Origin: Acinetobacter baumannii
GTDB taxonomy: Bacteria > Pseudomonadota > Gammaproteobacteria > Pseudomonadales > Moraxellaceae
DNA: 64,000 bases
Reading direction: 5' to 3'
Assembly: GCF_016508585.1 (NCBI RefSeq)
Contig: NZ_JADVOP010000008.1
Coordinates: 62,001-126,000, forward strand
Translations under genes and position numbers: made by a program
Part shown: positions 2,599-7,856 of the stretch, one piece after another
How the letters are laid out: every line of letters starts with the position of its first letter
Numbering within the stretch: the stretch's first letter is position 1
The notes under the pieces: generated by a model
The model's input: only the letters and a program-made list of their open reading frames with translations
Told to the model about the DNA's origin: nothing
The model's database searches: none

Positions 2599-4047
2599 CT
2601 AGATCAAGACTTTTCTGTCTGATGATGATGGAATATGTAACGATTCACGATATTTTGCGACAGTACGTCGCGCAACATCGATTCCATCCTCTTTCAACAA
2701 ATTGGCAATCGTATTATCAGACAATGGCTTACGAGGATTTTCATCTGCCACCAATTTTTTAATTTTGGCACGAATTGCCGTGGATGATGCTTCACCGCCA
2801 GAAGTAGTCCCCACATGACTTGAAAAGAAATATTTCAACTCAAACAAACCAAGTGGGGTCAACAAAAACTTATTGGTCGTGACTCGCGATACTGTTGATT
2901 CGTGCAATTCAACTTCTTCTGCAACATCTCTCAACACCAAAGGCTTCATGCCTTCTGCACCAATTTCTAGAAACTCACGCTGATGCTGAACGATACAGCT
3001 GGCAACTTTTAATAACGTTTTATGACGCTCATCTACACTTTTGATAAAGTTTTTAGCTTCCAACATTTGATTACGCAAATATTGGTTGTCATCACTTTGA
3101 TCAGCACGCTTGATCATGCCTGAATAGAAAGAGTTGATTCTCAACTTTGGCAAAACATCTGGATTCAGTTGAACATGCCAGTGATTATTCTTTTTGGAAA
3201 CCACCACATCAGGAATTTGATAATCTGATTCTTTTTGCTCAAACTCTGCCCCTGGATAAGGCTTCATGGTTTTCAGCAGTTCAATTGCTGATTTCAATGA
3301 CTCAGCATTCAAACCTGTCTGTTTAATCAATTTATTGAGATCATTGCTGACCAAAAGCTCATAATGTTTTAATAACATGAGAGCTTCTTTTCTAAATAGA
3401 GTGTGAGCAGGTAAAGCCTCGATTTGCACAAATAGACATTCTGCAAGATTACGTGCGCCAATACCTATCGGTTCAAGCCGCTGGATATACTTCAAGACCA
3501 CCAGAACCTCGTCTTCTTCAACTTCAATGTCATAGTCCATTTGCTGTAGCAAATGTTGGACAGAACTGACGATTTCATCGACATCTGCTTCCAAAAAACC
3601 TTTTTCATCAAGCGCATCGACAATACAGTAGGCGATCAGTTTATCGACTGGGGAAAAATGCAGTAAATTCACTTGCCCCAGCATATGCTCTTTTAATGAT
3701 GCATTTGAATGGCGGTTATCTTCACGATCTTCAAACTCTGGACGCTCCATTGCAGTAGATTGATGGGTATATACGTCATCCCAATCGGTATCTACAGGCA
3801 ACTCATCAGGTAAATGATTGGCATTTAAAGCATCGGAAAGCTCATACTCTTGTTGTTCTTGTTGTACGCTTTCCAAACTTTCATGTGTTTCTTCTTCAAC
3901 TTTTTCAAGCAAAGGATTACTGTCCAGTTGAATTTGAATTTCCTGTTCAAGTTCTAAACTCGATAGTTGCAGCAATCGAATGGCTTGTTGCAGTTGCGGC
4001 GTAAGCGACAACGAGTTTGCAACTTTTAATCCAACCGATAACTTCAT
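2599..4047 (-). CDS. rpoN: RNA polymerase sigma-54 factor
   Basis: Alternative sigma factor recognising -24/-12 promoters, dependent on AAA+ enhancer-binding activators. The product has 482 residues in the usual order: N-terminal glutamine-rich Region I (LTPQLQQAIRLLQLSSLELEQ), acidic Region II (about 50-110), the core-binding domain, a helix-turn-helix segment near 370-400 (LRDVAEEVELHESTVSRVT), and the C-terminal RpoN box (ARRTVAKYRESLHIP). The usual upstream lptA/lptB genes are absent; instead there is a 526-bp intergenic region and the divergent glt operon, which itself has a sigma-54-like promoter. Confidence 0.97.
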   Translation of the reverse strand: MKLSVGLKVANSLSLTPQLQQAIRLLQLSSLELEQEIQIQLDSNPLLEKVEEETHESLESVQQEQQEYELSDALNANHLPDELPVDTDWDDVYTHQSTAMERPEFEDREDNRHSNASLKEHMLGQVNLLHFSPVDKLIAYCIVDALDEKGFLEADVDEIVSSVQHLLQQMDYDIEVEEDEVLVVLKYIQRLEPIGIGARNLAECLFVQIEALPAHTLFRKEALMLLKHYELLVSNDLNKLIKQTGLNAESLKSAIELLKTMKPYPGAEFEQKESDYQIPDVVVSKKNNHWHVQLNPDVLPKLRINSFYSGMIKRADQSDDNQYLRNQMLEAKNFIKSVDERHKTLLKVASCIVQHQREFLEIGAEGMKPLVLRDVAEEVELHESTVSRVTTNKFLLTPLGLFELKYFFSSHVGTTSGGEASSTAIRAKIKKLVADENPRKPLSDNTIANLLKEDGIDVARRTVAKYRESLHIPSSSDRKVLI

Positions 4048-4374
4048 ACCTTTACTTCCTCACAGTGCTTCATTTCACTTTGTTCTGCTTCAATAAATTA
4101 AGCAAAATTCATGCCTATTCATTTTTTATACCACAGTAAAGAGGGGACGACTAGCAAAAAAAATGAATAGATTACATAAAAATATTTATTATTTATAAGC
4201 TAAAGTTAAATTTTAAAAATGTATTATTTTTATGAACAACTTACCAAATTGTCAAAGTTAGGAATTGGTGAAATAGACATCAAATATCTAAATATAGATT
4301 AAAAAACTATAAGCAAAAATAAATGAGCTTAGGGCTATTTATTTCAAAATATTTAAATAAAATAGGTTTCGCTT

Positions 4375-4390
4375 TGTGATACCAATCACA
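4375..4390. promoter_or_regulatory. CRP/Vfr-like palindrome (TGTGA-N6-TCACA)
   Basis: TGTGATACCAATCACA is a perfect 6-bp inverted repeat around 4 bp and matches the CRP consensus half-sites exactly. It lies about 110 bp upstream of the -24 element of the glt promoter, a position suitable for an activator or for modulating either divergent gene. The protein that binds is inferred, not shown. Confidence 0.5.
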
Positions 4391-4499
4391 TTTCTAGTTT
4401 TGCTAAATTTATTATTTTTATCCTTTACTTATTGGAATAGTGAGTATAAAAATAATGATATAAAGAAATATGATGGATCATTCTTTCAAGGAAAAGCAT

Positions 4500-4516
4500 T
4501 GGCACGATAACTGCTT
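4500..4516 (+). promoter_or_regulatory. sigma-54 (-24/-12) promoter of the glt operon
   Basis: TGGCACGATAACTGCTT matches the consensus TGGCAC-N5-TTGC at all but one position. The GG at -24 (4501-4502) and GC at -12 (4513-4514) are separated by exactly 10 bases, the invariant spacing. Transcription would start near 4526, about 48 bp before the gltI start. Dicarboxylic amino acid uptake in Pseudomonas is sigma-54 controlled through a two-component activator, which supports the call. Confidence 0.72.
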
Positions 4517-4573
4517 AATTTAAGGACAAGCACTATTGTAATGCCAAAATAATCATGTAATGGAGAACTCAAA

Positions 4574-5485
4574 ATGACACAATCAACTAAAGCACTATCA
4601 AAAAAGGTATTTACCACTGCACTTGGCGTACTTATGGCAGGTGGCGCTTTTTCACAAGTTCAAGCTGCTGATACTTTGGCAAAAATCAAGCAATCAGGAA
4701 AAGTCATCATTGGTTATCGCGAGTCTTCGGATCCAATTTCCTATGTTGTTGGCGGCAAGCCTATGGGCTATGCTGTTGATATTTGCAACAACTTTGCCAA
4801 TGAACTGAAAAAAACTCTCAAAATGCCTAACCTTAAAGTGGAATATAAGGCAGTTACCTCATCAACACGTATTCCAGAAATGTTGGCAGGTAATATTGAT
4901 ATGGAATGCGGTACGACAACTAACTCTGTTCAACGTCAACAACAAGTGAGCTTCTCTACCAACTACTATGCTACAGAAGTACGCATGGCAGTAAAAGCAA
5001 ATGCACCAATTAAATCAATTGCAGATTTAAATGGTAAAGCTGTCGTGACGACTCAAGGAACGACTTCTGATAAATACATCAAAATGGGTGAAAAAGGTGA
5101 AAAGGTCAACGTAAACAATGTTTACGGTAAAGATCATTCTGATTCATTTGCAATGGTGGCTTCAGGACGTGCTGCAGCATTTGTTATGGATGACAATATT
5201 CTTGCAGGTCTCATTGCTAAATCTTCAAATCCGAAAGACTTTAAAATTGTAGGTCCAGTACTTTCATCTGAACCTTACGGCATTATGCTTCCTAAAGGTG
5301 ATGCAGCATATAAGGCAATTGCGGATAAAACTGTCACCACAATGTGGAAAAACGGTCAAATGGCTGCTTTATATAAAAAGTGGTTCCAGTCTCCAATTGC
5401 ACCCAAAAATGTGAACTTAAATATGCCAATGAGTTCATCATACTTAAAACTTAAAGCCAACCCTACAGACGCTGGCATTAACTAA
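4574..5485 (+). CDS. gltI: glutamate/aspartate ABC transporter substrate-binding protein
   Basis: Periplasmic family 3 solute-binding protein, 303 residues, delivering acidic amino acids to the GltJK permease. Residues 1-31 form a signal peptide with cleavage after VQA. Mature motifs include GKVIIGYRESSDPISY, the ligand-loop segment ECGTTTNS, and SGRAAAFVMDDN. A Shine-Dalgarno sequence (GGAGAA) precedes the ATG. It is the first gene of a four-gene operon behind a sigma-54-like promoter and is followed by an intrinsic terminator, consistent with excess binding protein over permease. Glutamate/aspartate specificity is inferred from family resemblance. Confidence 0.9.
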   Translation: MTQSTKALSKKVFTTALGVLMAGGAFSQVQAADTLAKIKQSGKVIIGYRESSDPISYVVGGKPMGYAVDICNNFANELKKTLKMPNLKVEYKAVTSSTRIPEMLAGNIDMECGTTTNSVQRQQQVSFSTNYYATEVRMAVKANAPIKSIADLNGKAVVTTQGTTSDKYIKMGEKGEKVNVNNVYGKDHSDSFAMVASGRAAAFVMDDNILAGLIAKSSNPKDFKIVGPVLSSEPYGIMLPKGDAAYKAIADKTVTTMWKNGQMAALYKKWFQSPIAPKNVNLNMPMSSSYLKLKANPTDAGIN

Positions 5486-5504
5486 TCCCGTGCTCAAATC
5501 ACAG

Positions 5505-5548
5505 CTTATAGATCAGGCTTAAAGCAAAGTCTGGTCTATAAGTTTTTT
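5505..5548 (+). terminator. intercistronic terminator/attenuator between gltI and gltJ
   Basis: Arms 5505-5519 and 5528-5542 pair over 15 positions with two G-U wobbles and are followed directly by six T. It lies 20 bp after the gltI stop and 28 bp before gltJ, so partial read-through would set the binding-protein to permease ratio. Confidence 0.72.
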
Positions 5549-5576
5549 ACAAAATTAAAAATACAAAGGAGCACAC

Positions 5577-6419
5577 ATGTCAGTAGGCTCACTTAACTGG
5601 ACAGCATATTGTCTCCCCTCAAATGAATATAGTTTGGACAAGGCTGCATGGGCTGAATCCGTCTGTAAAGCTATAGGTGGTGAAAGTTACTCTCCTGTTG
5701 CTGATGCACCAACATGGTTACAACTGTTAGGTTCAGGTGTCTGGACCATGGTTTGGACTGCGGTACTTGCATTTTTTATCGCTTTCCTCCTGGGTTCGTT
5801 AATCGGAATCTTACGCACGATTCCAAACAAGCCCCTTGCATTTATTGGCACCTGTTATGTCGAACTGTTTCGAAATATTCCACTGATTGTACAACTCTTT
5901 TTCTGGGCATTCGTGTTTCCAGAACTACTTCCACTCAGCCTAAGCACAGGAAGTGGTGAAATGGTTCATGGTGGATGGTGGCAAAATATTCTCAATGACA
6001 AGCCAGCAGTAGTTGGTGTATTCGCTTTGGGTCTATACACTGCTGCCCGTATTGCAGAACAAGTTCGCTCAGGAATCAATACTGTTTCCAGAGGTCAAAA
6101 AAATGCAGCTTTTGCGATTGGTCTCACCCAAAGCCAAAGCTATCGTTATGTCATTCTTCCTGTTGCATATCGAATTGTATGGCCAACACTCACTTCCGAA
6201 GCAATGAACATTTTCAAGAACTCTGCCGTGCTGTATGCACTCAGTGTTTTAAACTTCTTTGCTTATACCAAAACGATGCGAGAAGAAACATCACAAGATA
6301 TTGTGATCCTTATTCTTTCAACACCAGTCTATTTGGTCATTACCTACACCATTAAGCTCATCATGGCGTGGATTGAAAAACGAATGGCTGTTCCTGGTCT
6401 TGGTTCAGGAGGTAAATAG
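5577..6419 (+). CDS. gltJ: glutamate/aspartate ABC transporter permease GltJ
   Basis: Inner-membrane permease of the HisM/GltJ type, 280 residues. A hydrophilic N-terminal region of about 45 residues precedes the membrane segments. The HisM/GltJ signature (VELFRNIPLIVQLFFW) and the cytoplasmic EAA loop (ARIAEQVRSGINTVSRGQ...AAFAIGLTQ), which contacts the ATPase, are present. A Shine-Dalgarno sequence (AAGGAG) lies just before the ATG. It sits 91 bp after gltI, with a terminator between, and 2 bp before gltK. Confidence 0.93.
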   Translation: MSVGSLNWTAYCLPSNEYSLDKAAWAESVCKAIGGESYSPVADAPTWLQLLGSGVWTMVWTAVLAFFIAFLLGSLIGILRTIPNKPLAFIGTCYVELFRNIPLIVQLFFWAFVFPELLPLSLSTGSGEMVHGGWWQNILNDKPAVVGVFALGLYTAARIAEQVRSGINTVSRGQKNAAFAIGLTQSQSYRYVILPVAYRIVWPTLTSEAMNIFKNSAVLYALSVLNFFAYTKTMREETSQDIVILILSTPVYLVITYTIKLIMAWIEKRMAVPGLGSGGK

Positions 6420-6421
6420 TC

Positions 6422-7099
6422 ATGGATTTTAGTATTTTACAAAATCAGGATGTGATTCAAACACTGATTGCAGGGTTTAAGTTTACCGTTACTGTGACGA
6501 TTTTATCTATTATTGGTGGAATTCTGATTGGCACACCTTTAGCCATGATGCGTTTATCCAACAATACAGTCGCCAGTAATTTTGCTAAAGCATATGTTGA
6601 CTTTTTCCGTGGCGTTCCACTGATTCAGGTCATTTTTATTTTCTATTTTTTATTGCCAAAGTTCTTTGAGTTTCAATCTGATACCTATTATGGACCACTC
6701 TTTTCAAGTGTGGTGACCTTTGCAATTTTTGAAGCTGCATTCTTTTCAGAAATTGTTCGTTCAGGTATTCAGTCTGTCTCAAAAGGTCAAGTCAATGCAG
6801 GTTATGCCTTAGGCTTCACTTATGGACAAACCATGTCCAATGTCGTACTGCCTCAAGCATTTAGAAATATGCTGCCTGTTATATTGACTCAATCTATCGT
6901 ACTTTTCCAAGATGTCTCATTGGTATATGTGATCAGTGCGCCAGACTTCCTAGGCAATGCAAATACTTTAGCAAATACTTACGGTGCTGAAACCAAAGCA
7001 ACATTCTACCTTATTGTAGCAGTTGTTTATTTCTGTATCTCCTTTGCGCTTTCTAGACTTGTGAAGCGTTTACATCAAAAAATAGCAATAATTCGTTAA
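6422..7099 (+). CDS. gltK: glutamate/aspartate ABC transporter permease GltK
   Basis: Second permease subunit, 225 residues, forming the membrane channel with GltJ. It has the hydrophobic helices of the family, the signature [18 protein letters not shown], and the EAA loop [24 protein letters not shown]. It begins 2 bp after gltJ, indicating translational coupling. The length and order match the gltIJKL operon of enterics and Pseudomonas. Confidence 0.93.
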
Positions 7100-7112
7100 T
7101 TGGAGAATCAAT

Positions 7113-7856
7113 ATGCCAATGATAGAAATACAGCATATCTCAAAATGGTATGGAGATTTTCAGGTTCTCACAGATTGCACCACATCCATTGAAAAAGGTG
7201 AGGTTGTGGTGGTTTGTGGACCATCTGGTTCTGGAAAATCTACACTGATTAAGACAGTCAATGCATTAGAACCATTTCAAGAAGGCAATATTATTGTTGA
7301 TGGAACAGCGCTCAAAGATTCAAAAACTGATCTCGCCCAGTTTCGCTCTCGCGTAGGCATGGTATTCCAACACTTTGAATTGTTCCCGCATATGACCGTT
7401 TTAGACAACTTGACCATTGGACAGGTCAAAGTACTGAAACGTTCTAAATCGGAAGCTGAGAAAAAAGCTTTACAATACTTAGATCGTGTGGGTTTAGCAG
7501 CACATAAAAACAAATTCCCCGGACAGCTGTCTGGTGGTCAGCAACAACGTGTTGCGATTGCACGTGGTTTGTGCATGGATCCAGTATGTATGCTATTTGA
7601 CGAACCGACTTCTGCACTTGATCCAGAAATGGTTGGAGAAGTTCTTGAAGTCATGAGCCAACTTGCAAAAGAAGGTATGACCATGATGTGTGTAACCCAC
7701 GAAATGGGCTTTGCACGAAAAGTCTCGTCACGAGTGATTTTCATGGATCAAGGTAAAATTTTAGAAGACTGCGCAACCGATGACTTCTTTAATAAGCCAG
7801 ATGAGCGTCATGAAAGAACCAAGTTTTTCTTAGATAAAATTTCCATGGTGCATTGA
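7113..7856 (+). CDS. gltL: glutamate/aspartate ABC transporter ATP-binding protein
   Basis: Cytoplasmic ATPase of the amino acid importer, 247 residues. Walker A (GPSGSGKST), the Q-loop ([18 protein letters not shown]), the ABC signature (LSGGQQQR), Walker B ([12 protein letters not shown]) and the H-loop (THEMGF) are all intact and in order. The gene follows gltK by 13 bp with a Shine-Dalgarno sequence (TTGGAG), and the operon ends at a strong symmetric terminator 22 bp later. Confidence 0.95.

Follow-up and report, generated by a model that had tools for sequence, protein, structure and literature searches.

This locus raises the question of how a glutamate/aspartate transporter is controlled when its genes stand back to back with rpoN, the gene for sigma-54. 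The window (the whole stretch of 64,000 nucleotides that was analysed) comes from an Acinetobacter-type genome of 4.34 Mb in 111 contigs, the nearest named relative of which, judged by GltI, is A. guillouiae CIP 63.46 (98% identical). rpoN runs leftward from 4047 and the transporter genes rightward from 4574, forming the divergent pair described in an earlier note on this DNA, and the identity of rpoN is secured by a profile match above its cut-off. The amino acid ABC operon spans 4574–7856; the top match of its binding protein is PRK10797 (glutamate/aspartate), at a score under the model's curated cut-off (252.6 versus 375).

2599–4047, − strand: rpoN (sigma-54); NCBIfam NF004595, 665.1 bits against a cut-off of 513; also TIGR02395
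4574–5485, + strand: gltI-type glutamate/aspartate binding protein; open reading frame and profile matches
5577–6419 and 6422–7099, + strand: two permeases of the same ABC transporter as gltI
7113–7856, + strand: ATPase of the same ABC transporter
4562–4565, + strand: Shine–Dalgarno GGAG inside AATGGAG; possible second CsrA contact (ANGGA)

The earlier note had picked out a sigma-54-type motif before gltI and a perfect palindrome 110 bp upstream of it, and both are present as described.

4500–4515, + strand: predicted sigma-54 promoter P2, TGGCACGATAACTGCT; GG at 4501–4502, GC at 4513–4514, spacer N10; predicted start ~4526
4375–4390, no strand: CRP/Vfr-type palindrome TGTGA-N6-TCACA, TGTGATACCAATCACA; assigned by pattern, spacing to the P1 −10 (see below) and conservation

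P2 agrees with TGGCACGNNNNTTGCW at 11 specified positions out of 12, with C for T before TGC, and is the sole exact match to TGGCACN6TGCW in the window; with up to one mismatch, nine matches occur where 9.23 are expected. TGTGAN6TCACA with up to one mismatch occurs three times (3.36 expected), the sole exact match being that at 4375–4390. A single sequence alone proves nothing for either motif, and it is conservation that decides. Since neither exceeds chance in the window, we compared relatives.

The comparison drew on the best 80 of 122 confirmed gltI-like loci. A first comparison took 16 named Acinetobacter loci with rpoN divergent from gltI and 27 others at no less than 73% identity; rpoN adjacency was judged within the retrieved flank, and the contigs of L026 and L043 end 225–300 bp upstream of gltI. 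The 24 rpoN-adjacent loci counted below are the window, L123–L143, L022 and L023; L012–L021, L024, L046, L049 and L050 were left out as duplicates, their contigs being, by length, those of L123, L125–L132, L134, L139 and L141–L143. The 20 other gltI loci are 17 orthologues and 3 paralogues, hand-chosen from the best 80 of 122. CRP, sigma-54 and NtrC sites were scored with simple weights of our own, not with published matrices.

A GG-N10-GC element lies 59–103 bp before the assigned start in 27 of 27 gltI loci without rpoN found alongside (from the best 80 of 122), positions relative to the ATG being approximate and the gltI starts of L051, L052 and L134 poorly assigned. A sigma-54 score of at least 18.5 out of 21 is reached by 19 of the 20 other gltI loci and by 12 of the 24 rpoN-adjacent ones, against 0.017 and 0.007 expected; these and later expectations come from shuffled 5′ regions, and the species are related, hence the loci are not independent trials. 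Among the degraded sites, L136, L138 and L022 carry a remnant with GA replacing GC; the GG-N10-GC of L127 and L130, situated in the hairpin region described below, is poor (16.5 of 21). On this comparison of relatives, P2 is very probably a real sigma-54 promoter of the transporter. The promoter looks old and independent of the place of rpoN, and the clade that has gltI beside rpoN seems to have lost it in part. The earlier note had attached a functional meaning to the rpoN neighbourhood, which finds no backing: the site is present in every gltI locus without rpoN found nearby and low-scoring in 12 of the 24 beside it, and the neighbourhood is very probably incidental to the gltI sigma-54 promoter. 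A functional adjacency was rejected, and the exact motif GA-N-GGATC of the hairpin is found in 0 of 19 rpoN upstream regions without gltI.

Where gltI lies elsewhere, rpoN of L144, L148, L151–L156 and L162 has a terminator on its divergent side and, beyond it, what we take to be 5S rRNA, so the place where gltIJKL and rpoN became neighbours may have been next to an rRNA operon. The gltI frame of L143/L049 (G086:C30:2487-3377) has three stops in about 35 codons near its start, from either gltI decay or sequencing error; despite these the promoter region is intact, hairpin and sigma-54 site both being there. A sigma-54 site, TGGCATTTGTTTTGCT, is found in the 5′ region of a gltI paralogue (58–61% identical; L055, L058 and L060), and in the brisouii-type gltI 5′ regions (L026, L027 and L033) a different, GGGA-loop hairpin overlaps the sigma-54 −12. 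Genome-wide, there are 26 exact sigma-54 matches, 14 of them in front of genes, and one precedes a protein read as an AmtB-type ammonium transporter. The genome-wide scan with one mismatch gave 571 matches against 143 in a backward-read control, too unspecific for single promoters.

The window genome has 11 Pfam Sigma54_activat matches, of which five, all above 170 bits, are clear sigma-54 activators; six weaker ones (22.7–28.8 bits) were set aside. NtrC and RtcR are named by curated NCBIfam cut-offs, and we take a third to be PilR-like and the orphan L002 to be SfnR-like. The earlier note had looked to aauRS-like genes for the activator; no AauR-type protein was recognised among the five, with the Sigma54_activat profile as query, and of eight AauR-type sites in the window (TTCGG-N4-CCGAA, up to two mismatches) none falls within 4048–4573. 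An NtrC orthologue (at least 83%) is encoded in 26 of 26 hand-picked gltI genomes, the G094 copy with stops in frame; a PilR-like relative is also common among them (matches of ~32%). At E ≤ 1e-80, two proteins were rejected as general gltI activators: the PAS-type L004, found in 0 of 25 other genomes, with one 50% relative, and the SfnR-like L002, present at 88% or more in only 2 others of the 26. The best NtrC-type site before gltI in the window scores 7 of 12 and is not convincing. In the window group the best sites score 6–9, the 9 (L123) overlapping its CRP site, and in other gltI loci 7–10; a pattern scan of the window's own genome lacked the specificity to be of use. By elimination, NtrC is the best general candidate for activating P2, without a good site in the window.

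The paralogue L060 has a near-perfect NtrC-type site, TGCACCAATATATTGCA (11 of 12), and those of L055 and L058 are degenerate (9 and 10 of 12). On contig 19, the PAS-type activator (L004/L180) lies between an apparent iron-type alcohol dehydrogenase and an aldehyde dehydrogenase, and an exact sigma-54 site stands 52 bp before the former.

Between the palindrome and P2 lies a further, predicted promoter, absent from the earlier reading. An alignment of nine adjacent loci reveals CTTTAC-N15–16-TATAAA at this place.

4423–4450, + strand: P1, sigma-70 type; CTTTAC 4423–4428, 16-bp spacer, TATAAA 4445–4450; predicted start ~4457

By the patterns used, P1 is found in 18 of the 24 rpoN-adjacent loci and is missing from six. 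A CRP score of at least 15 of 18 is reached in 11 of these 24 loci (0.41 expected from shuffled 5′ regions) and in 2 of the 20 other gltI loci (0.40 expected). In the 11, the palindrome centre stands 60.5–62.5 bp from the first base of the P1 −10 in nine and 70.5 bp in L127 and L130, placing the CRP-like site in fixed helical phase to the sigma-70-type promoter; weaker CRP half-sites in L136 and L138 are 61.5 and 62.5 bp away. The distance from palindrome centre to sigma-54 site is 104.5–105.5 bp in two loci and 113.5–117.5 bp in seven, and 100.5 bp to the poor sigma-54-like site of L127 and L130. With an assumed start 10–12 bp after the first −10 base, the palindrome centre falls at about −72 to −75 (−80 to −83 in L127 and L130), near class I CRP positions. 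The genome encodes a CRP/Vfr orthologue (L117, with cNMP-binding and Crp domains), and the accessible part of PMC11410210 reports that A. baumannii Vfr works with cAMP.

Downstream of the P1 −10, a hairpin region reads GAAATATGA-TGGA-TCATTCTTTC, with relatives in other loci.

4465–4487, + strand: GGA-loop hairpin GAAATAT-GATGGATC-ATTCTTTC, CsrA/RsmA-type; core ATGATGGATCAT at 4470–4481

GGA-loop hairpins occur in 20 of the 24 rpoN-adjacent loci against 3.95 expected, with score, region and thresholds fixed after the hairpins had been seen. Three of them (L124, L127 and L130) are at other places, and a stricter count gives 17 of 24. On the opposite strand there are 2 in 24 against 1.28 expected, a result that a plain DNA palindrome does not explain. 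When all 64 trinucleotides are ranked by their occurrence in strong loops, GGA comes first (13 loci), followed by AGG (12), AAG (11) and GAT (11), all of which overlap GGA. L136, L138, L140 and L022 bear GGA in the loops of unrelated stems; in L123 (A. guillouiae) the GGA is replaced by GAA, and a GGA hairpin is missing from L139. In other gltI loci, GGA-loop hairpins are found at other places in 7 of 20 (2.82 expected).

We aligned 19 hairpins, 17 of them distinct, over a 10-bp stem, leaving out five loci (L022, L136, L138, L139 and L140). Paired cells make up 78.2% of this stem versus 68.6% in shuffles, and the covariation score is 0.293 versus 0.145 ± 0.025 (0 of 500 shuffles as high; slid controls 0.078–0.141). 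Seven of the ten stem pairs are changed on both sides, that is, by compensatory changes. With a 7-bp stem the score holds (0 of 500 shuffles), and two of the five measures become less exceptional, namely the double-changed pairs (69 of 500 shuffles) and the types of pair (16 of 500). RNAalifold predicted no structure for the alignment. In the window's own sequence the hairpin folds poorly: the minimum-energy fold of the first 45 nt (−3.3 kcal/mol) pairs the GGA, and the 4-bp core is not formed. An Rfam search gave only a chance match, and a search for hairpin plus sigma-54 pattern hit 22 of 149 genus genomes, with many matches apparently unrelated.

The genome encodes csrA (L116), and the loop agrees with the ANGGAN hexaloop of RsmE sites and with the SELEX rule that places GGA in a short hairpin, as given in the accessible part of PMC7652899. 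The hairpin is most likely a candidate docking site for CsrA/RsmA. ANGGA also lies within the last 22 bases 5′ of the assigned ATG in 18 of the 24 rpoN-adjacent loci; CsrA might equally repress through this Shine–Dalgarno region or activate. A csrA deletion mutant of A. baumannii is unable to use many carbon sources, amino acids included, according to the part of PMC8567240 available to us, a phenotype that could reflect activation, as at flhDC, or indirect effects. For relatives of A. baumannii, the hairpin is a concrete candidate RNA site.

On the other side of the intergenic region, rpoN carries a sigma-54-type site of its own, and rpoN autoregulation is known in other bacteria.

4102–4115, − strand: sigma-54-type −24/−12 element of rpoN, GGCATGAATTTTGC; GG-N10-GC
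4125–4133, − strand: extended −10 of rpoN, TGGTATAAA; its TATAAA starts 15 bp before the element's GG

Of 43 Acinetobacter rpoN upstream regions, 24 from loci with gltI alongside and 19 from loci without it, all 43 have GGCAY-N5-TTGCW on the rpoN strand, no more than 90 bp from the start of the gene (42 of 42 of those with an assigned start); a similar pattern is expected in 0.08 loci from shuffles. In 41 of the 43, a TGN-TATA-type extended −10 precedes the GG by 13–16 bp, which puts the beginning of the sigma-54 element near the expected sigma-70 start. In family loci outside the genus, GGC-N7-TTGC lies within 150 bp of the assigned Met in 10 of 21 with a recognised rpoN N-terminus (L210–L214, L219, L222, L224, L231 and L232; the Met is internal in several). 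L220 has GGA for GGC, six loci have no GG-N10-GC upstream of rpoN, and the site is missing from L225, L227, L229 and L230, where the sequence before it looks like the end of lptB; the N-terminus was not found in L226 and L228, and these are outside the 21. In a sister genus (L210–L213), the site lies ~36 bp upstream of a TGGTTATAAT −10, not just downstream. The sigma-54 holoenzyme has been proposed to act as a repressor at such sites in E. coli (PMC8743547, accessible part). Given that proposal and a conserved site at the sigma-70 start, self-repression of rpoN through 4102–4115 is probable. Sigma-54 self-control in Acinetobacter thereby becomes testable at one defined, constant site.

Two other readings concern which promoters these elements serve. 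The earlier note saw the palindrome possibly as an upstream activating site, an enhancer, for the sigma-54 promoter; in another form of this reading CRP acts from there on P2. Some 110 bp separate the palindrome from the −24, as is usual for enhancers, and it is compatible with a NifA-type site, which TGT-N10-ACA fits. In loci with both elements, the distances from palindrome to sigma-54 site cluster around 105 and 115 bp, also about a turn apart; the spacing test is therefore not clean, and we weighted the enhancer reading up and the main explanation down for it. We nevertheless hold it to be unlikely, as the spacing to the P1 −10 is tighter, the palindrome persists in L127 and L130 despite their poor GG-N10-GC and is seldom seen among the loci that generally have the sigma-54 site (2 of 20, versus 11 of 24 beside rpoN), and no NifA was recognised among the five clear activators of the window genome. 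P1 is the more likely partner of the palindrome, a preference and not proof, because of that tighter spacing and the palindrome's presence in loci without a good sigma-54 site. The case shows how, from one sequence alone, a CRP site may be assigned to a promoter other than its own. The control by two inputs that the earlier note proposed is partly supported, with a sigma-54 promoter and a CRP-like site both in place and a CRP/Vfr orthologue encoded; its observation stands, and its interpretation was half right. At 4500 and at 4102 alike, the sigma-54 site follows a sigma-70-type promoter, and with 'repressive' RpoN promoters proposed in E. coli (in what is accessible of PMC8743547) the two sites could serve gltI and rpoN mainly as roadblocks to sigma-70 transcription. 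We consider this unlikely: the gltI site is retained even by genomes whose upstream region differs, and Pseudomonas aatJ induction is rpoN-dependent in the accessible part of PMC7962211.

The hairpin invites two further explanations. An inverted repeat just downstream of a −10 is in the usual place for an operator, operators are palindromic too, and by eye some other Acinetobacter gltI 5′ regions have other inverted repeats there, without GGA; 4465–4487 might then be the DNA operator of a dimeric P1 repressor, and not an RNA hairpin. This is unlikely, in view of an asymmetric, strand-constant centre (sense-strand GGA in 20 of 24 forward versus 2 of 24 reverse), of arms that differ widely yet pair, G–U pairs included (L137, 12-bp stem), and of the unrelated stems that also bear the GGA loop. 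The proximity of the hairpin to the predicted P1 start would suit a 5′ stabilising stem-loop, or one working with Hfq or another RNA-binding protein, the GGA being incidental; Hfq is important for A. baumannii growth (PMC12802169, the part available). We find this less likely still, the GGA being among the most constant parts while the stems vary, and keep the candidate CsrA/RsmA site as the preferred reading.

Taken together, we favour, with moderate confidence, an arrangement deduced from sequence comparison: two promoters in tandem, P1 of the CRP/sigma-70 kind and P2 of the sigma-54 kind, with a CsrA-type hairpin carried by the P1 transcript alone, and an adjoining, self-controlled rpoN. 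P1 would be activated by CRP/Vfr–cAMP from 4375–4390, where the anatomy is conserved. The P1 transcript would begin with the hairpin, exposing GGA in its loop, and CsrA, if bound there, would repress or protect the P1 mRNA. The predicted P2 start lies downstream of the hairpin, so the P2 transcript would lack it, if that start is right. P2 would require an enhancer-binding protein, most likely NtrC by elimination, and sigma-54 RNA polymerase at 4102–4115 would hold down the sigma-70 promoter of rpoN. It is conceivable, though rather doubtful, that promoter choice sets CsrA control, the P1 transcript carrying the hairpin and the P2 transcript escaping or forgoing it, while sigma-54 limits its own gene through 4102–4115. 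If true, nitrogen-type induction of gltIJKL would bypass carbon-storage control.

The components are of known kinds, and their combination is a variant not found in the literature searched. No paper on gltI/rpoN regulation in Acinetobacter was found among titles and abstract openings, with few subscription journals covered; in the accessible texts, 'aspartate' is absent from PMC8567240 and 'gltI' from PMC12802169 and PMC11410210.

Transcription of E. coli glnA from tandem promoters, glnAp1 (sigma-70, CRP) and glnAp2 (sigma-54, NtrC), is a close parallel: a CRP/sigma-70 promoter upstream and a sigma-54 promoter downstream serve one nitrogen gene. Here, however, there is no convincing NtrC site, and a GGA-loop hairpin lies between the two predicted starts. 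The aatJ-aatQMP genes of P. aeruginosa and P. putida (AauSR, RpoN) encode the same transporter type behind a −24/−12 promoter and are also expressed independently of RpoN (PMC7962211, accessible part). By contrast, no AauR was recognised here and no AauR-type site with up to two mismatches lies between rpoN and gltI; a CRP-type site, a sigma-70-type promoter and a GGA hairpin are found instead. Like the two CsrA sites near the flhDC 5′ end, the hairpin presents GGA in its loop (SELEX consensus RUACARGGAUGU, ANGGAN hexaloop; PMC7652899, in part). It differs in its closing pair, G–C and not C–G, in belonging to one of two predicted transcripts, and in that CsrA is here a putative ligand. Finally, as at the repressive RpoN promoters proposed in E. 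coli (PMC8743547, accessible part), a sigma-54 holoenzyme site adjoins a sigma-70 promoter, but here it does so at rpoN itself, in 43 of 43 Acinetobacter loci.
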